In this document: piece by piece, positions 10,242-35,357 of the stretch | Numbering within the stretch: position 1 is the first letter of the stretch | How the letters are laid out: each line of letters starts with the position of its first letter | Virus record (IMG/VR): IMGVR_UViG_3300024505_000143 | Coordinates: 1-35,357 of that record | Source: a virus | Reading direction: 5' to 3' (one strand) | Length of the DNA stretch: 35,357 nt | Translations under genes and position numbers: made by a program | Notes under the pieces: generated by a model | The model's input: only the letters and a program-made list of their open reading frames with translations | Databases searched by the model: none | Told to the model about the DNA's origin: nothing

Positions 10242-10314
10242 CTTTATCCTTATTTGGAGATAGACAAAACATTAGTTTTTAGACAAAACAATTATAATTT
10301 TCTCTAAGCCCTAC

Positions 10315-10343
10315 TATATACTTTAATGTAGTTTTGATGTAAA
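10315..10343 (-). promoter_or_regulatory. Candidate leftward promoter near terS
   Basis: TTTACA (10343-10338), 17 bases, then TATATA (10320-10315), matching 5/6 and 4/6 of the sigma70 consensus. The -35 overlaps one of two ATGTAAACAA repeats (10337-10346 and 10350-10359). The region is AT-rich, which raises the chance of a fortuitous match. Confidence 0.4.
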
Positions 10344-10497
10344 CAAATAATGTAAACAATACCGTAACAAGACTAACGATTAATAACTACGTATATGAAA
10401 ACTTAATGAACTGAATGAGCAGGTCGTTAAAGTATACTTTTGTTTACTTCTTAGTTCATCCCTAGTGACTTAGAAGAATATTATAATCATGGGCTGA

Positions 10498-10526
10498 AAT
10501 GTAGCATACTTTTACTGTTTTGTCAA
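10498..10526 (-). promoter_or_regulatory. Candidate leftward promoter for the terminase/structural block
   Basis: TTGACA (10526-10521), exactly 17 bases, then TACATT (10503-10498). The -35 is perfect and the -10 matches 4 of 6. It would give a transcript with about 250 bases of leader before terS, containing the 12-bp palindrome AAAGTATACTTT (10429-10440). Confidence 0.5.
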
Positions 10527-10783
10527 CAACTATTTTGAGACTTCACTCTAAAGTCCCCTCTTAGGGTGCGCAGGTTCCTTTATTGATAATTCATTCTCAA
10601 TAACTTTTATTGTCTATTTCTTCTTTGTTTTCAATAACTTAACATAATCTGTTCTGTCCCTAATTATTAGTCAACTTTCCTGACTTTTTTGCTTTCTAGT
10701 TTTACTTTTTTGTGTGCTTTGGAGGCTACAGTAACAACAACGTTCCCACCAACGCCCCTCCCCCCTAGTGAGCACTCACTCAC

Positions 10784-10855
10784 AAGCATATATAAGCAGT
10801 TACTTATATAAGTATGCACTTATATGGTGCTATATAGTTATAAATTATAACGATA
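10784..10855. other. AT-rich palindrome cluster, candidate DNA-unwinding element
   Basis: This 72-base segment holds several perfect or near-perfect palindromes: TACTTATATAAGTA (10801-10814), GCACTTATATGGTGC (imperfect, about 10816-10830) and GTTATAA-A-TTATAAC (10837-10851). It lies next to the DnaA-box cluster, where an origin's unwinding element is expected. The function is inferred. Confidence 0.5.
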
Positions 10856-10879
10856 TTAATGACTCATGGGTCAGTAAAG

Positions 10880-11143
10880 TTATCCACAGGATAATCACAG
10901 TAGGTCTTTTGTGTCTGTGGATAAACTGTGGAGAACTTTGGTGGTCGTAAGTGGAGGTCATTGAAGGTGCCTCTAAAGACACCCAAGCCTAAACCTATAA
11001 AGACATCCAAGTCTATAGGCAAAGACTATAAAGCATCCGCTGAAGTTATCCACAAGTTATCCATGGTTGTGGACAACTATACCCTATGATGTATCACTTA
11101 TCCACAGGTTATAGTCTTATATAAGACCCACGGCTGTGTATAA
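10880..11143. other. DnaA-box cluster, putative replication origin
   Basis: Five matches to the DnaA box TTATNCACA occur in 264 bases: 10880-10888 (+), 10916-10924 (-), 11046-11054 (+), 11098-11106 (+) and 11135-11143 (-, TTATACACA). Looser variants lie at 11057-11065 (TTATCCATG) and 11068-11076 (TTGTCCACA on minus). A 14-bp palindrome GTCTTATATAAGAC (11114-11127) sits among them. With the flanking AT-rich element, this is the layout of a host-type oriC or DnaA-dependent plasmid origin. No phage initiator protein was recognised. Confidence 0.75.
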
Positions 11144-11354
11144 CAGGCACTAGTGGTGTTAATAACTTTGTCTAAGGGTGGAGTGGCTTGGATGAAAATA
11201 ATCGCTCTAAAGCCGTTTAAATCGGTCTAGTGTAAAGAATTGTAAAGTTACCAAAACCTAGGGTTTTCCCTAATGTTCACCACGGCAAACGGTGGAATAC
11301 TAGATTCAATGACAGAGCACAGGGTTCTGTCAGACTTGCAAAGGATACGCAATC

Positions 11355-13469: not shown

Positions 13470-13630
13470 GCGAATACAGATTCAACGAGGATTCGATGCG
13501 GGATTTGTTGGAACAGGCACGAAAGGCTGAGGCTTGGGCGTGTATCTCCTACCTGAACCATGCCGGGTTTGAGGATGCGGCAAAGGCTTTAAAGCAAAGG
13601 GAACAAGATGCTGACCAAGACCAAAAGTGA
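13466..13630 (+). CDS. Small helical protein, unknown (54 aa)
   Basis: The frame MSEYRFNEDSMRDLLEQARK, then AEAWACISYLNHAGFEDAAK and ALKQREQDADQDQK. The ATG overlaps the previous stop (ATGA) and its 3' end overlaps the start of the primase-helicase by 23 bases, so it is likely co-translated with that gene. It is short, acidic and helical. A role next to the replication machinery is only positional. Confidence 0.6.
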   Translation: MSEYRFNEDSMRDLLEQARKAEAWACISYLNHAGFEDAAKALKQREQDADQDQK

Positions 13631-15206
13631 CTTTTTGAAGCATATAGGGTGCGATCATTGCGGATCGAGCGATGCAAATGCCTTGTATGATGATGGTCAC
13701 TCGTATTGCTTCAAATGCGGAGCAATTGAGTCATTAGATAATGTGGATTTTCAACCCACTAAACCTAAAATGGAAACTAAAATGTTAACTCAAGGTGAAG
13801 TTAAGGCCATTGGTGATCGAGGGATTACATGGGAAACTTGTGATTTCTTTAAAGTCACTCAAGTGGACGGTAAGCATATCTATCCGTATGCGGATTCTGA
13901 CGGTATGTATGTGGCCTCAAAGGTGCGTCATGTCGCAAACAAGACCTTTGCCGTTGAGGGGCAATGGGCCAAGGCTCAGTTGTTTGGGCAAAACCTGTTC
14001 CCTAAAAGCGGTAAATACATCACCATAGTAGAGGGAGAATTAGACGCTTTGGCGTGCTACCAGATGCTAGGCTCCAAATGGCCTGTTGTGTCGATCAGAA
14101 ATGGCGCACAAGCGGCTCTGAAGGACTGTAAAGCCAGTTATGAGTGGTTGGACTCTTTTGATAATGTGGTGATCTGCTTTGATGCTGATGAACCGGGACG
14201 CAAAGCAGCAGAGGAAGTGGCAGAGTTGTTTGGCTCAAAAGCCAAGATTGTGAAACATATTAAGGACAAAAAAGATGCGTGTGATTACCTTGCTTCTGGG
14301 TTGGCTGCTGAATTCGTTTCTTCCGTCTGGTGGAAAGCAGAAACCTATGTGCCCGATGGAATCGTTGCAGGCTCTACGCTCTGGGAAGAGGTAAGCGCAC
14401 CAGAGAAACCCGCTGATGCTTTGTATCCCTTCAAAGGCTTGAATGAGCTGCTTTATGGCCTTCGACCTGCTGAGTTGATCACGGTTACTGCTGGTTCTGG
14501 ACTTGGTAAAAGTCAGTTCTTGCGGGAAATCCTGTATCATGTGCTTAAGACAACAAAGTGGAACATTGGTGGGTTGTTCTTGGAAGAATCGGTTAAGAAG
14601 ACTGCCCGTAGCATCATGAGCTTGGAAGCCAACAAGAAGTTGCATTTGCCTGACACTTTGGTGAGCGAGGAAGAACTCAAGCACGCCTTTGATGCTACAC
14701 TCGGGACTGATCGAATTTACTTGTTTGATCACTTTGGGAGCACAAACATTGACAACATCTTGAACCGCATCCGCTACATGGTGAAAGCCTGCGATTGTCG
14801 CTTGATCTTTCTCGACCACATCAGCATTGTTGTGTCGGGACAGGATAACGGTGATGAGCGTAAGGCCATTGATGAGATGATGACTCGCTTGAGGACTTTG
14901 GTGCAGGAGCTTAATGTTACTTTGGTGGCGGTGAGTCACCTCAAGCGGCCTAACGGCAACCAAGGACACGAGGACGGACAGGCTGTCTCTTTATCACAAC
15001 TACGAGGCTCCGGTGCAATTGCTCAGTTGTCAGACGCTGTGATAACATTGGAGCGTAACTCAATGGCAGAAGACCCTAATGTGAGGCACATCACCAAGGT
15101 CTCCGTTGCGAAAAACCGGTATTGCGGTCTCACTGGCCCTGCTTGTGAGCTAAAATACGATACGGACACAGGGAGAATGAGAGAAGTCACTTTGGAGGAA
15201 CTATGA
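13608..15206 (+). CDS. Primase-helicase (T7 gp4-like)
   Basis: A 532-residue bifunctional replication protein. An N-terminal zinc ribbon uses C15, C18, C34 and C37. A TOPRIM-type primase domain has the catalytic Glu in IVEGELDA (E142) and the metal-binding FDADEPG (D192, D194). The C-terminal RecA/DnaB-type helicase has a Walker A loop AGSGLGKS near 300, Walker B LIFLDHIS, and a conserved H4-like QLRGSGAIAQLSD. It unwinds the fork and primes the lagging strand for the phage polymerase. AAAGGGAA precedes the ATG. The length is close to T7 gp4 (566). Confidence 0.95.
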   Translation: MLTKTKSDFLKHIGCDHCGSSDANALYDDGHSYCFKCGAIESLDNVDFQPTKPKMETKMLTQGEVKAIGDRGITWETCDFFKVTQVDGKHIYPYADSDGMYVASKVRHVANKTFAVEGQWAKAQLFGQNLFPKSGKYITIVEGELDALACYQMLGSKWPVVSIRNGAQAALKDCKASYEWLDSFDNVVICFDADEPGRKAAEEVAELFGSKAKIVKHIKDKKDACDYLASGLAAEFVSSVWWKAETYVPDGIVAGSTLWEEVSAPEKPADALYPFKGLNELLYGLRPAELITVTAGSGLGKSQFLREILYHVLKTTKWNIGGLFLEESVKKTARSIMSLEANKKLHLPDTLVSEEELKHAFDATLGTDRIYLFDHFGSTNIDNILNRIRYMVKACDCRLIFLDHISIVVSGQDNGDERKAIDEMMTRLRTLVQELNVTLVAVSHLKRPNGNQGHEDGQAVSLSQLRGSGAIAQLSDAVITLERNSMAEDPNVRHITKVSVAKNRYCGLTGPACELKYDTDTGRMREVTLEEL

Positions 15207-16198: not shown

Positions 16199-16383
16199 TG
16201 AGTCTTGATCAAATTGTTGGAAGGTTGATGGACTTGGAAGACAAGTATTATGAGTTACAATCCAGATACCACGACCTAATCAACTCCTATGAAAAACTGA
16301 AAGAAGAGCATGAGAATTGCACTGGACATAGAATCAAACCTAGCGCACAACAAGATTTGGATGTGCGTAACGAAGGACATTGA
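16195..16383 (+). CDS. Small coiled-coil protein overlapping the DNA polymerase start (62 aa)
   Basis: The frame MMSLDQIVGRLMDLEDKYYE then LQSRYHDLINSYEKLKEEHE is a continuous predicted coiled coil (residues 3-42) with a polar tail. AAGGAG lies eight bases upstream of 16195. It shares 74 bases with the start of the polymerase gene in another frame, so the tail (residues 39 on) is overprinted. A coiled coil at this place may aid oligomerisation of a replication factor, but no family is recognised. Confidence 0.6.
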   Translation: MMSLDQIVGRLMDLEDKYYELQSRYHDLINSYEKLKEEHENCTGHRIKPSAQQDLDVRNEGH

Positions 16384-18022
16384 CACTCAGGAGATTCGTG
16401 TATGGAAAGATCACAATGGCCTAAGCGACTATCTAAGCTCGGCTACACAGATAATCGCCCACAACGGGGTCGGGTTCGATTTTCCGATATTGAACAAGTT
16501 ATGGAAAACGAAGATTACTTTGAGGCAGATATTCGACACACTGGTAGCAGGGCGTCTATTAGAGCCAACGAGAGAGAACGGACACAGCTTGGAAAGCTAC
16601 GGAAAGAGTTTAAGCACACACAAGGTAGACTATCCAAAGATTTGGGAGTGGATGAATGACAAAAAGCAAGAATATTCTGGTGAGTGCTTTGATGACCCGA
16701 TTATGGGTCTGCTTGAGTACTACTGTATACGGGATGTGGATGTTCTGGTTGATGTATATCATCATGTTTCACAAGGACTAGAGAAGAATAAGTTTTCTCA
16801 AGAGTCTGTGGAACTCGAACATCGTGTGGCAATGATCATCAATGAGCAAGAACGAAACGGATTCAAACTGGACATTCCCCATGCAACAATGCTACTTACT
16901 AACCTCAAAGGAAGATTGGCAGAAATCAATGAACAAATGCAGCAGCGATGGCCTCCCTATTCAGTTGAGCGATTCTCAGAAAAAACAGGAAAGCGACTTA
17001 AAGATGAAATCGTTGTCTTCAATCCCGGCTCTCGAAAGCAAATTGGTGAAAAGCTGATTGAACTTGGGTGGAAGCCTAAGAAGTTTACTGAGACTGGACA
17101 ACCCATGGTCGATGAGGGCACGCTGATGAATGTCAATATTCCAGAAGCTAAAGTGATTGCTGAGTATCTTTTGGTGCAAAAGCGTATCGCCCAGATTGAA
17201 TCATGGGTTGATGAAGTCAAAGAGGACGGAAGGGTTCATGGACGTGTAAACACCAATGGAGCAGTTACCGGACGCATGACTCACTTTAAGCCTAACATGG
17301 CTCAGATACCAAACGCAGGAAGCTTATATGGCCCTGAGTGTCGTCAGTGCTGGACTGTTGATGCCGGTAATGTTCTTGTCGGCTGTGACGCTTCTGGTCT
17401 TGAATTGCGTATGTTGGCTCATTACATGAAGGATGAAACCTATGTCAAAACGGTCTGTGAAGGAAGCTCAAAGGATGGAACGGATGTTCACACCCTCAAC
17501 CAAAAGGCTGCGGGGCTACCAACTAGAGATGATGCGAAGACGTTTATTTATGCCTTCCTATACGGTGCGGGGCCAGCGAAGATCGGCTCCATCGTTGGTG
17601 GTGACGCATCTACTGGAACCAAGCTTATCAACAAGTTTCTTTCCGCAACTCCCTCGTTGCAGACGCTACGTAACACTGTTGCCAAGTATGCGGACAAGGG
17701 TTATGTCCCCGGCTTGGATGGTCGCAAGATTTGGGTGCGCTCGGAGCACGCCGCCCTCAATACGCTACTTCAAGGAGCTGGTGCAATTGTTATGAAGAAG
17801 GCTTTGATTCTTTTTCATGATAAGATCAGAGCAAACAAGTGGCCTGTGAAGCTTGTTGCAAATGTTCACGATGAGTTCCAGTTTGAGTGTCCACAAGAGA
17901 TCGCTGAAGAAGCCGGAAAAGCTGCTAGAATGTCTATCGTAGAAGCAGGAGAGCATTTCAACCTTCGTTGTCCCTTGGATGGCGAATACAAAATAGGGGC
18001 CAACTGGCGTGAAACACACTGA
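16310..18022 (+). CDS. Family A DNA polymerase with 3'-5' exonuclease domain
   Basis: A 570-residue T7-type replicative polymerase, shorter than T7 gp5 (704). The proofreading domain has DIE at 6-8, a HNGVGFDF Exo II motif (N52, D57) and an Exo III Y-x3-D (Y138, D142). The polymerase domain has motif A VGCDASGLELR (D360), motif B RDDAKTFIYAFLYG (R406, K410, Y414, Y418) and motif C NVHDEFQ (H520, D521, E522). The position equivalent to E. coli Phe762 is Tyr (Y414), as in T7. It would copy both strands with the primase-helicase. Confidence 0.95.
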   Translation: MRIALDIESNLAHNKIWMCVTKDIDTQEIRVWKDHNGLSDYLSSATQIIAHNGVGFDFPILNKLWKTKITLRQIFDTLVAGRLLEPTRENGHSLESYGKSLSTHKVDYPKIWEWMNDKKQEYSGECFDDPIMGLLEYYCIRDVDVLVDVYHHVSQGLEKNKFSQESVELEHRVAMIINEQERNGFKLDIPHATMLLTNLKGRLAEINEQMQQRWPPYSVERFSEKTGKRLKDEIVVFNPGSRKQIGEKLIELGWKPKKFTETGQPMVDEGTLMNVNIPEAKVIAEYLLVQKRIAQIESWVDEVKEDGRVHGRVNTNGAVTGRMTHFKPNMAQIPNAGSLYGPECRQCWTVDAGNVLVGCDASGLELRMLAHYMKDETYVKTVCEGSSKDGTDVHTLNQKAAGLPTRDDAKTFIYAFLYGAGPAKIGSIVGGDASTGTKLINKFLSATPSLQTLRNTVAKYADKGYVPGLDGRKIWVRSEHAALNTLLQGAGAIVMKKALILFHDKIRANKWPVKLVANVHDEFQFECPQEIAEEAGKAARMSIVEAGEHFNLRCPLDGEYKIGANWRETH

Positions 18023-20154: not shown

Positions 20155-20653
20155 ACACTGGAGTCCTTTCGAGATGGTGAACGTCTGCATGGAGATTGAA
20201 ACCACACGGGATATTGCTCGTCAAATCCTGAGACACCGTAGTTTCAGTTTCCAAGAGTTCAGCCAACGATATGCTGTTGCTAACGGCTTTGATGTTCGTG
20301 AGTGCCGCACACAGGACTTACTGAATCGTCAGAACAGCCTCCAGACTGACAACGGAGAACTACACCAGTTTTGGAAGGAAGCTCAAGCTGAGATGATCGG
20401 GAAGGCCAGTAGTCTATATGCTCAAGCCTTGGACAAAGGAATTGCTAAAGAGACTGCTAGAGCTTTGTTGCCGGAAGGATTGACAATGAGTAAGATGTAT
20501 ATGAACGGAACTCTTCGTAGCTGGCTTCACTACATTGATATTCGTTGTGATCCTGCAACACAGAAAGAACATCGTGAAGTAGCAGAACAATGTCGTGCTA
20601 TCATCTTTGCTTTGTTTCCGTCAGTGAAGGAGGCTATGAATGGAGTTCAATGA
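20018..20653 (+). CDS. thyX: FAD-dependent thymidylate synthase ThyX
   Basis: A 211-residue enzyme that methylates dUMP to dTMP using methylene-tetrahydrofolate and flavin. The signature RHRxxSxxxxSxR is complete as RHRSFSFQEFSQR (residues 72-84). Other conserved blocks are the N-terminal ENLIAYMARVSN and the C-terminal RALLPEGLTM plus LRSWLHYIDIRCDP. GGAAGG lies about eight bases before the ATG at 20018, chosen over an upstream in-frame start. It boosts dTTP for phage DNA synthesis together with RNR. It overlaps the gene before it and the MazG gene after it. Confidence 0.95.
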   Translation: MSQVKLVWGTPNGENLIAYMARVSNPENQNNTTSSPKLLKYLIKHKHWSPFEMVNVCMEIETTRDIARQILRHRSFSFQEFSQRYAVANGFDVRECRTQDLLNRQNSLQTDNGELHQFWKEAQAEMIGKASSLYAQALDKGIAKETARALLPEGLTMSKMYMNGTLRSWLHYIDIRCDPATQKEHREVAEQCRAIIFALFPSVKEAMNGVQ

Positions 20654-22046: not shown

Positions 22047-22278
22047 ATACATCAAAAGTATTCAACACCACGGTTCTAACGGAGTTCAAGTAGGCGGAAG
22101 TCACTATCGTGACAAAGAAATCCAGCCTTGGGACTACATTTATGTAAATAACCTTGGCTATTTTGAAGGAAACTGTGTAAAATACGTGTCCCGCTGGAAA
22201 GACAAAGGGGGAGTGGACGATCTGCGTAAAGCAATCCACTATCTGCAAAAACTGATTGAACTAGAAGAAGGACAATGA
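22021..22278 (+). CDS. DUF3310/T7 gp1.7-like nucleotide kinase family protein
   Basis: The ATG at 22021 (MEKEVTLAEYIKSIQHHGSN) gives 85 residues. The core matches DUF3310: VGGSHYRDKEIQPWDYIY, then FEGNCVKYVSRWKDKGGVDD and LRKAIHYLQKLI. The T7 gp1.7 nucleotide kinase carries this domain, but whether this short version is enzymatic is unknown. It is placed between phosphoesterase and RNR genes, consistent with nucleotide metabolism. It overlaps the phosphoesterase by 26 bases. Confidence 0.85.
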   Translation: MEKEVTLAEYIKSIQHHGSNGVQVGGSHYRDKEIQPWDYIYVNNLGYFEGNCVKYVSRWKDKGGVDDLRKAIHYLQKLIELEEGQ

Positions 22279-22715
22279 TGACAGACAAAACCTACTATGT
22301 CTACTCTCACATTGACCCTGAAAACGGCTCCAGACAATATATAGGTGTGGGCCGATACGACAGGGCTTGGTGTTGTAGACGAAACCAAAGAAATGAAAAA
22401 CATTTTTTATGGCTTCAGGAACAATATAACAAAGGTTTTACTTTGGAGAATATTGTTAGAATAGAGAAAAAAGCACTGACAAAACAGGAAGCATTGGAAA
22501 TTGAAAGTTCTATTATAAAAACAGAAAAACCGCCTATGAATGAGCTAGGTAATCCGGATCATTGGAGCCGAGGTAGGCAGTATAATCCAGAATTAGCTGC
22601 TTTTGCCAAAACGCTGCATCAGATGGGTTATGGTTATCAGCGTGTGTCCATGCTGATGGGAGGAGCGAAAAATCAACAAATGAAAGCAAAAAGGATGATT
22701 GAAAATGCAAACTGA
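22275..22715 (+). CDS. GIY-YIG-like endonuclease (possible homing enzyme)
   Basis: A 146-residue protein. The N-terminus has YYVYSHIDPENGSRQYIGVG, the spaced VY...YIG pattern of GIY-YIG nucleases, followed by DRAWCCRRNQRNEKHF with the usual Arg and basic region, and EALEIESSIIKTEKPPMNEL with the late Glu and Asn. Residues 105-135 form a helix-turn-helix-like tail (LAAFAKTLHQMGYGYQRVSM). It starts inside the preceding gene (ATGA) and abuts the RNR gene, a typical site for a free-standing homing endonuclease. Cutting has not been shown. Confidence 0.7.
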   Translation: MMTDKTYYVYSHIDPENGSRQYIGVGRYDRAWCCRRNQRNEKHFLWLQEQYNKGFTLENIVRIEKKALTKQEALEIESSIIKTEKPPMNELGNPDHWSRGRQYNPELAAFAKTLHQMGYGYQRVSMLMGGAKNQQMKAKRMIENAN

Positions 22716-33680: not shown

Positions 33681-35357
33681 TCATGCTCCTTTCAATGCGG
33701 CCACATCGGCCTTGAGTTGTTCAATGATGGCTTGCTGTTCTTGAATTGCTTTGACCAAACGGGCTTCAGTTTTGCTCCACGCCGAGACAGTAAGCATCCC
33801 ATCTTCTCGTTCACCTACAGCATCTGGATAAACTTTTTGCATTTCTTGAGCAATAAAACCAGTTTGATGTCCACCTCCTTCAGACGCAATGTAATCAAAC
33901 TCAACAGGACGCAATGCCATGATGTTGGCAAGTTGAGGTGGTATATCAACAATGTTTTCTTTCAATCGAGCATCTGAATATGTGCCAAAGGCCAATGTGT
34001 TAGCCCCGTTCATATTGATTTGACCAGCACCCGCACCAGTGGAAAGAATGGTGGCCTGCAAAATGATTTGTGAAGTTGTCGTATTGTTGTCCTGCTTACC
34101 AATCCGAAGCCCAGGTTGACCAACATCACCAGCCGTAGAACTGTTAAAAGTAACAAGCGGTGCGGAAGTTGCGGCTCCGCTAACTGCAAGTTTTCCAGAT
34201 TGGCTCGTAGTCCCCACCAGCAAATTCCCGCTGGAGTCGATTAACATCCGAGCCGCGCCAGCGGTATTGCTGTAAATCACAAACTGGTCAGCAGAGGCGG
34301 TAACACCGTTACCGATAGTCCATCCATATACGCCGTTGGAAGTAACAAAACCCAACGTGCGACTTTCTGTGGCCGATGCGATACGCAAGACTGCGCTACC
34401 GTTAACATCAAGTTTTGCAACGGGGGATGTACTTCCAACCCCCAAATTCCCACTCGCATCCAGCGTCATTGCTTGGGTGAAGGTGATGGCAGAACCAGCA
34501 GTTCCAGTTCCAGCAGTAAACCATTTATGGACGTTGGCATCCAGCAAATACATTGATGCACTAGAACCCGCAACACGGTTGTATGTTGGAGACGAACCTG
34601 TGCCAGTTGCATATACGTTGTTGGCGAACAAAGCCTGTCCAACAGTTGAAATTTCGGCCGCAACACTTGCGTATTGTCCAAGTTGAATCGGCTTATAGTT
34701 TGCACTCCAAGCACTCGGCGTAACCCCTAGACCAAGGTTGCCAGAGGAGTCGAGACGCATACGCTCGGAGCCAGCAGTTGCAAACAGAATTGCATCGTTG
34801 GCAAACTCATACCCCACATATCCTCTGTTAACTCCAGAAGTGGTGTTTCTAAATACCAAATACCCCGTAGCAGTTGAGGGGCCAGAAACAGCAACCCTTG
34901 GAGATGAGGCATCGTATATATCAAGTTTTGTAGAAGGCGAACTCGTCCCAATGCCAAGACCTGTGGAGGTCAGGCGCATTTTTTCTGCAAGGTTTGCCGA
35001 GAACACCAGAGAAACACCAGTGCCACCGTATAAGTTATATGTGCTGCTTGTGTTGTCGTAATACAAGTAGCCTTTTTCAACGCCGTTGTACCTGTTTGCA
35101 ATGCCAGATAAATTTCCTGATGACGCATCGGTATAAATCTGACCTTTCCCAGTAGCCCACGCAGCCGTTGATGCAAGACTCGCCCCATCAAAAGTCAGCG
35201 CACTACCACTTGTCGCAACCTTAGAGCCGTCGAGATACAGAACCCCGTTGGCTGTGCCAGCCGACAGAGTGGGGTTGGCGGTAAGAGTGGCAGCACCCGT
35301 CAGAGTGGTTGTGCCAGTAACAGCCAGAGTGGAAGAAAGCGTAGTGGCTCCAGTGAC
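33681..35357 (-). CDS. S74-type tail fibre, C-terminal part with self-cleaving chaperone
   Basis: The frame is open to the right edge (558 residues in window) and continues from the fibre N-terminus at 1-365. The shaft has repeated beta-type blocks, such as MRLDSSGNLGLGVTPSA, MTLDASGNLGVGSTSPV and MLIDSSGNLLVGTTSQS, the pattern of fibre repeats. The last 98 residues are the intramolecular chaperone/peptidase S74 domain: YSDARLKENIVDI carries the catalytic Ser-Lys (SDxRLK), followed by FDYIASEGGGHQTGFIAQEM and a coiled-coil tail. The domain would cut itself off before the Ser after folding the trimer. It probably carries the receptor-binding region. Confidence 0.9.
   Translation of the reverse strand, partial: VTGATTLSSTLAVTGTTTLTGAATLTANPTLSAGTANGVLYLDGSKVATSGSALTFDGASLASTAAWATGKGQIYTDASSGNLSGIANRYNGVEKGYLYYDNTSSTYNLYGGTGVSLVFSANLAEKMRLTSTGLGIGTSSPSTKLDIYDASSPRVAVSGPSTATGYLVFRNTTSGVNRGYVGYEFANDAILFATAGSERMRLDSSGNLGLGVTPSAWSANYKPIQLGQYASVAAEISTVGQALFANNVYATGTGSSPTYNRVAGSSASMYLLDANVHKWFTAGTGTAGSAITFTQAMTLDASGNLGVGSTSPVAKLDVNGSAVLRIASATESRTLGFVTSNGVYGWTIGNGVTASADQFVIYSNTAGAARMLIDSSGNLLVGTTSQSGKLAVSGAATSAPLVTFNSSTAGDVGQPGLRIGKQDNNTTTSQIILQATILSTGAGAGQINMNGANTLAFGTYSDARLKENIVDIPPQLANIMALRPVEFDYIASEGGGHQTGFIAQEMQKVYPDAVGEREDGMLTVSAWSKTEARLVKAIQEQQAIIEQLKADVAALKGA
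35215..35357. repeat. Right copy of terminal direct repeat / circular overlap
   Basis: The last 126 bases are identical to 18-143, and the preceding 17 match with three differences. It lies within the minus-strand fibre gene in the same frame. This is the expected sign of a circularly closed contig or a terminally redundant genome. Confidence 0.85.

Follow-up and report, generated by a model that had tools for sequence, protein, structure and literature searches.

Within a 35,357-nt stretch of viral DNA (IMG/VR record IMGVR_UViG_3300024505_000143, positions 1-35,357; hereafter the window), we identified a non-coding element at 10788-11165 in which DnaA boxes surround a palindrome matching the operator core of the host regulator SdhR. 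We judge the chances to be evenly balanced that this element makes up the phage's origin of replication, wholly or as a central part, with host DnaA opening it and SdhR as a second input. Since the module recurs in unrelated phages, it is a candidate, and a probable one, for the means by which this freshwater phage draws on host signals to begin copying its DNA. No description of such a module was found among the papers searched.

The window's leftward genes at 0.4-10.2 kb (tail fibre, capsid, portal, and terminase) are followed by rightward genes at 11.4-24.6 kb (primase-helicase, PolA, exonuclease, ThyX, MazG, and ribonucleotide reductase), and downstream of 24.6 kb the genes, for lysis and structure, run leftward again. 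The entire DnaA-box element is contained within a non-coding gap of ~1.1 kb (10242-11354), inside which the ORF list holds only small, overlapping mechanical ORFs, and which is flanked by leftward late genes (a 134-aa ORF adjoining terL) on one side and rightward early genes on the other. The initial annotation had described a phage with a T7-like primase-helicase and polymerase, no RNA polymerase, and no recognised initiator, and this description held throughout: a T7-type primase-helicase (13608-15206, + strand; phrog_239, E 1.5e-188) and a PolA-type DNA polymerase (16310-18022, + strand; phrog_17 PolA, E 2.6e-146) are present, the T7-type RNA polymerase family PF00940 was absent from the window and found in the positive control S-CBP3 (E 5.6e-55), and the DNA-binding domain of DnaA (Bac_DnaA_C) was found in 0 of 33 phage records and in 10 control genomes. 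The window thus lacks the phage single-subunit RNA polymerase by which T7-type, RNA-polymerase-primed replication is recognised. Elsewhere in the window, a homing-endonuclease-like ORF (22275-22715; phrog_314, E 9e-5) directly precedes the ribonucleotide reductase gene, and HNH-like genes are frequent around the module in relatives. An exact 126-bp direct repeat occupies 18-143 and 35232-35357, the second copy standing at the record end; because a fibre ORF stays in frame when joined over this repeat, an almost complete circular assembly of ~35.2 kb may be what the record represents, with an internal fibre repeat as the alternative, given that the 17 bases preceding the first copy differ.

Exact matches to TTATNCACA occur at 10880 (+), 10916 (-), 11046 (+), 11098 (+), and 11135 (-), so the five boxes in both orientations reported earlier for 10880-11143 are present, and they form the densest box cluster of the genome; the sole other exact TTATNCACA box of the window is at 2945. 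Four of them (10880-10888, +; 10916-10924, -; 11046-11054, +; 11098-11106, +) are the DnaA box TTATCCACA, and the fifth (11135-11143, -) is TTATACACA. Looser variants were also found: a weaker TTCTCCACA box at 10927-10935 (-), 11 bp from the 10916 box, TTGTCCACA at 11068-11076 (-), and a degenerate TTATTAACA at 11157-11165 (-). This density is far above chance, with five TTATNCACA boxes in a 391-bp region against a shuffle mean of 0.043 and a maximum of 2 (0/5000 shuffles reach five), and four strict TTATCCACA boxes in that region against 0.0096 in shuffles; when the whole window was shuffled (n=200), the best 264-bp stretch never held more than two boxes.

Beside the boxes, the AT-rich palindrome cluster noted at the outset proved real. 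The stretch at 10788-10867, a candidate DNA-unwinding element by stability and ssDNA folding, ranks second for low stability among all 80-bp stretches of the record and contains three TTATATAAG-like units spaced 16 bp apart (10788, 10804, and 10820), and 10770-10880 folds better as ssDNA than shuffles do (z = -3.4). The same 16-bp repeats adjoin the module in locus L048 and in Limnohabitans phage DC31, and neither in DC31 nor in Curvibacter phage P26059A does the module rank with the least stable DNA. In DC31 itself, sets of three TTATATAA units spaced 16 bp apart form two arrays (L201:17333-17372 and 20372-20411), one adjoining the module and the other 3 kb off in another non-coding gap, and these arrays are possibly a separate phage operator. 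GC skew, proposed at the start as a check, does not support an origin here and was dropped as evidence: the cumulative minimum of the window (12182) is near the cluster, not at it, and falls where the genes change from leftward to rightward, which makes skew uninformative in the window. In DC31 and P26059A, where skew can be told apart from gene direction, it tracks gene strand: its turns fall at gene-strand switches, away from the module and its box cluster (35.1 kb against a module at 20.3 kb in DC31, and 56.0 against 72.4 kb in P26059A).

Structurally, a BLAST match to DC31 first exposed a fixed unit, which in the window spans 11098-11165 and consists of box A (11098-11106, +), 7-9 bp, the palindrome TCTTATATAAGA (11115-11126, present as a single copy in the record), 7-9 bp, a reversed box B (11135-11143), ~13 bp, and a reversed box C (11157-11165), which starts 22 bp from box B and in most relatives reads TTATCCACA or TTGTCCACA. 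Across 111 distinct modules, among the matches listed, box A mostly stands 7-9 bp left of the palindrome, the gap from palindrome to box B is 7-9 bp, and that from B to C is mostly 13 bp; more generally, the enriched box spacings are 22, 9, and 11 bp for tandem boxes and 36-38 bp for facing boxes. Boxes A and C, which were freely sampled, vary mainly at position 5, with box C also A or G at position 3, as expected for DnaA, while box B was fixed by the search pattern and so was not freely sampled. In all nine module-bearing genomes examined, the palindrome occurs once only, within the densest box cluster, and in two scans whose search did not depend on the palindrome every module contig recovered carried it exactly, the other matches having different layouts. 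The boxes of the window and the SdhR core are one module common to different phage groups, which goes beyond what the initial annotation described. A structured RNA is unsupported: no Rfam family matched at the gathering threshold, with only chance-level matches below it, and co-variation between boxes A and B is lacking (15/91 identical).

Searches of 394 Burkholderiaceae genomes returned many short matches to one site, in which TCTTATATAAGA is flanked by mdh on one side and, on the other, by a GntR/UTRA regulator gene with sdhC after it. SdhR is a GntR/HutC-family regulator of the TCA cycle in Burkholderiaceae hosts, and its operator is TCTTATGTCTTATATAAGACATAAGA (PMC4494728). As TCTTATATAAGA matches both this operator and the host mdh/sdhC site, the phage palindrome is, at the level of sequence, identical to the 12-bp SdhR operator core. 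The 12-mer occurs in 226 of 246 sampled Burkholderiaceae genomes, usually in 2-4 copies, and a reversed control pattern was rare in the sampled genomes. The phage copies differ from the published operator (PMC4494728) in being enclosed by DnaA boxes and mostly lacking its outer half-sites (TCTTATG / CATAAGA), of which the full left one was found in 2/97 modules and the full right one in 0/97; one locus (L086) carries TCTTATGTCTTATATAAGA, which matches the first 19 of 26 SdhR consensus bases.

Among phages related through the primase, 51 loci were retrieved, and most of those with an upstream region have TTATCCACA boxes clustered in the corresponding gap, at 2.5-5 kb ahead of the primase gene (L011, L014, and L018 have no exact box). 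Relatives whose primases are 74% (L028, L029), 68% (L042, L049), or 55% (L044-L046) identical keep the boxes, arranged differently (often as tandem copies 11 bp apart) and without TCTTATATAAGA, which indicates that the boxes are the more constant part. The cluster is not a general property of phages with T7-like primases, as four more distant ones (HTVC115P, CRP-125, Pasto, and ctYwJ313) lack it, with at most one box per 500 bp. Dense TTATCCACA clusters in other layouts and without the palindrome were also seen in viral contigs of up to 149 kb (L257, L260, L263, L274, and L279), and it may be that phages carry clusters of DnaA boxes more often than has been recognised.

The pattern TCTTATATAAGAN{6,10}TGTGNAYAA matched at least 120 viral contigs, most of them with boxes A and B, and in 257 Gb of bacterial genomes it gave 28 matches, none with box A, including those in Bosea and Massilia. 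Loci were grouped by marker genes and communities (single-linkage by shared genes chained all of them together), which placed 91 of 123 in the window's phage group (~35-40 kb), 15 with DC31 and P26059A (many of these contigs 53-84 kb), and 13 in a third group that is only partly linked. DC31, a long-tailed phage (PMC12195039), and P26059A are phages of 76-84 kb that are unrelated to the ~35-40 kb group. A module-consensus search of 50,697 phage records was convincing only in these two, with 94% identity over 90 bp in DC31 and 81% in P26059A, where only boxes A and B survive. Their hosts, Limnohabitans and Curvibacter, are both Comamonadaceae, which suggests that the window phage infects a related freshwater bacterium. 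Near the module, 27 loci (L108:5672-5893, L002:9563-9787, and 25 more) encode a family of ~74-aa proteins (GQWVYAG...GRFLGVKKSG...VVAW) that is shared by the short phages and the 76-kb group and had no match in a Pfam search. P26059A also encodes, by its record annotation, an IHF-like protein (L205:18783-19100), a type of DNA-bending factor used at many origins.

No plasmid relatives emerged, the consensus search of plasmids giving no match, and a copy of host oriC was ruled out, as no intact module was found in the 394 Burkholderiaceae genomes or the 257-Gb scan; the upstream regions of 12 host dnaA genes hold few exact boxes and no comparable cluster. Calling the region a host-type origin was therefore too strong, given that the host genomes searched do not contain the module and its layout matches no known host origin. 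The DnaA-dependent origin proposed alongside that label fared better, since the boxes exceed chance, are conserved in relatives, keep a fixed geometry in unrelated phages, and in the window lie next to AT-rich DNA in a phage with a T7-type primase-helicase but neither a T7-type RNA polymerase nor a DnaA-like domain. Counting against the proposed model are GC skew, the survival of boxes A and B alone in P26059A, the unexceptional stability of the module in DC31 and P26059A, and the scarcity of SdhR outer half-sites in the phage copies.

Functionally, host DnaA, which very probably binds these boxes, would occupy the inverted and tandem TTATCCACA sites and help to melt adjacent AT-rich DNA (10788-10867 and/or TCTTATATAAGA), whereupon the phage T7-type primase-helicase could load onto the single-stranded DNA so uncovered, with elongation by the phage polymerase. 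SdhR, whose binding to the phage palindrome we consider fairly likely from the shared operator core, would sit between boxes A and B, shaping or gating the complex and thereby coupling phage start-up to host metabolism. That the element acts as an origin is slightly favoured, and a gating role for SdhR is conceivable and on balance doubtful. More speculative, and tentative at best, is a general scheme in which unrelated lytic phages of freshwater Burkholderiaceae share an origin module that reads DnaA as a signal of replication readiness and SdhR as one of carbon state before handing the DNA to a T7-type primase-helicase.

The strongest competing explanation, itself unlikely, is a transcriptional control hub in which DnaA and SdhR regulate the divergent promoters of the early and late genes, with replication starting at some other site. 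DnaA is a known transcription regulator, and the module lies between divergent gene blocks in 57 of the 67 window-group loci with both flanks scored. SdhR is likewise an established regulator of transcription (PMC4494728). However, the DC31 and P26059A modules sit inside same-strand gene runs, promoter-like sites in the gap are no commoner than in shuffles, and module direction relative to genes is not constant, differing among DC31-like phages, which suits an origin better than a promoter. It is improbable that the element is instead a sponge, whereby replicated phage copies would titrate DnaA (stopping host initiation) and/or SdhR (releasing TCA genes): phage copy number is high in infection, and the element has several strong boxes and an exact copy of the host operator core, but a decoy could do without the constant spacings of 36-38 and 22 bp, and without a palindrome count of exactly one in each genome. 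An element of the DARS or datA kind, resetting which nucleotide DnaA carries, would share with E. coli DARS1 and datA a non-coding cluster of DnaA boxes, and its order of one forward and two reversed boxes is that of the DARS1 core; the box starts are 37 and 22 bp apart in the phage module versus 14 and 12 bp in DARS1, so that DARS1 spacing was not found, and the palindrome inside and the flanking boxes are extra, making this reading very improbable. A packaging (pac) site is scarcely credible, for the module is within 1 kb of the ORF adjoining terL in the window's phage group but in P26059A lies at ~72.3 kb of 84.0 kb, far from terL (1078-2550).

Among known systems, E. coli oriC likewise has TTATCCACA boxes in both orientations beside AT-rich DNA; the phage element differs in spacing and order, has no dnaA or host genes beside it, holds an SdhR operator core, and belongs to a module not found in the host genomes searched. 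Phage P1 (at oriR) and plasmids such as F and pSC101 are mobile elements with DnaA-box origins that use host DnaA, as proposed for the module, and they also need a self-encoded Rep and iterons, whereas the window phage has no recognised initiator. That a phage should contain DnaA boxes at all has a published precedent as a software prediction, in that Pseudomonas phage PseuGes_254, with PolA and a primase, has an AT-rich region with DnaA boxes by Ori-Finder (PMC11512268); in the accessible part of that report, the origin is a software prediction only and no module or cross-phage comparison is reported.

For phages that carry a T7-like replisome without an RNA polymerase, a module of DnaA boxes around a host operator core offers a testable answer to how the start site is chosen, and with DC31 and P26059A, both in culture and both carrying the module, the test is already within reach. 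If true, it would directly link host carbon metabolism to phage replication.
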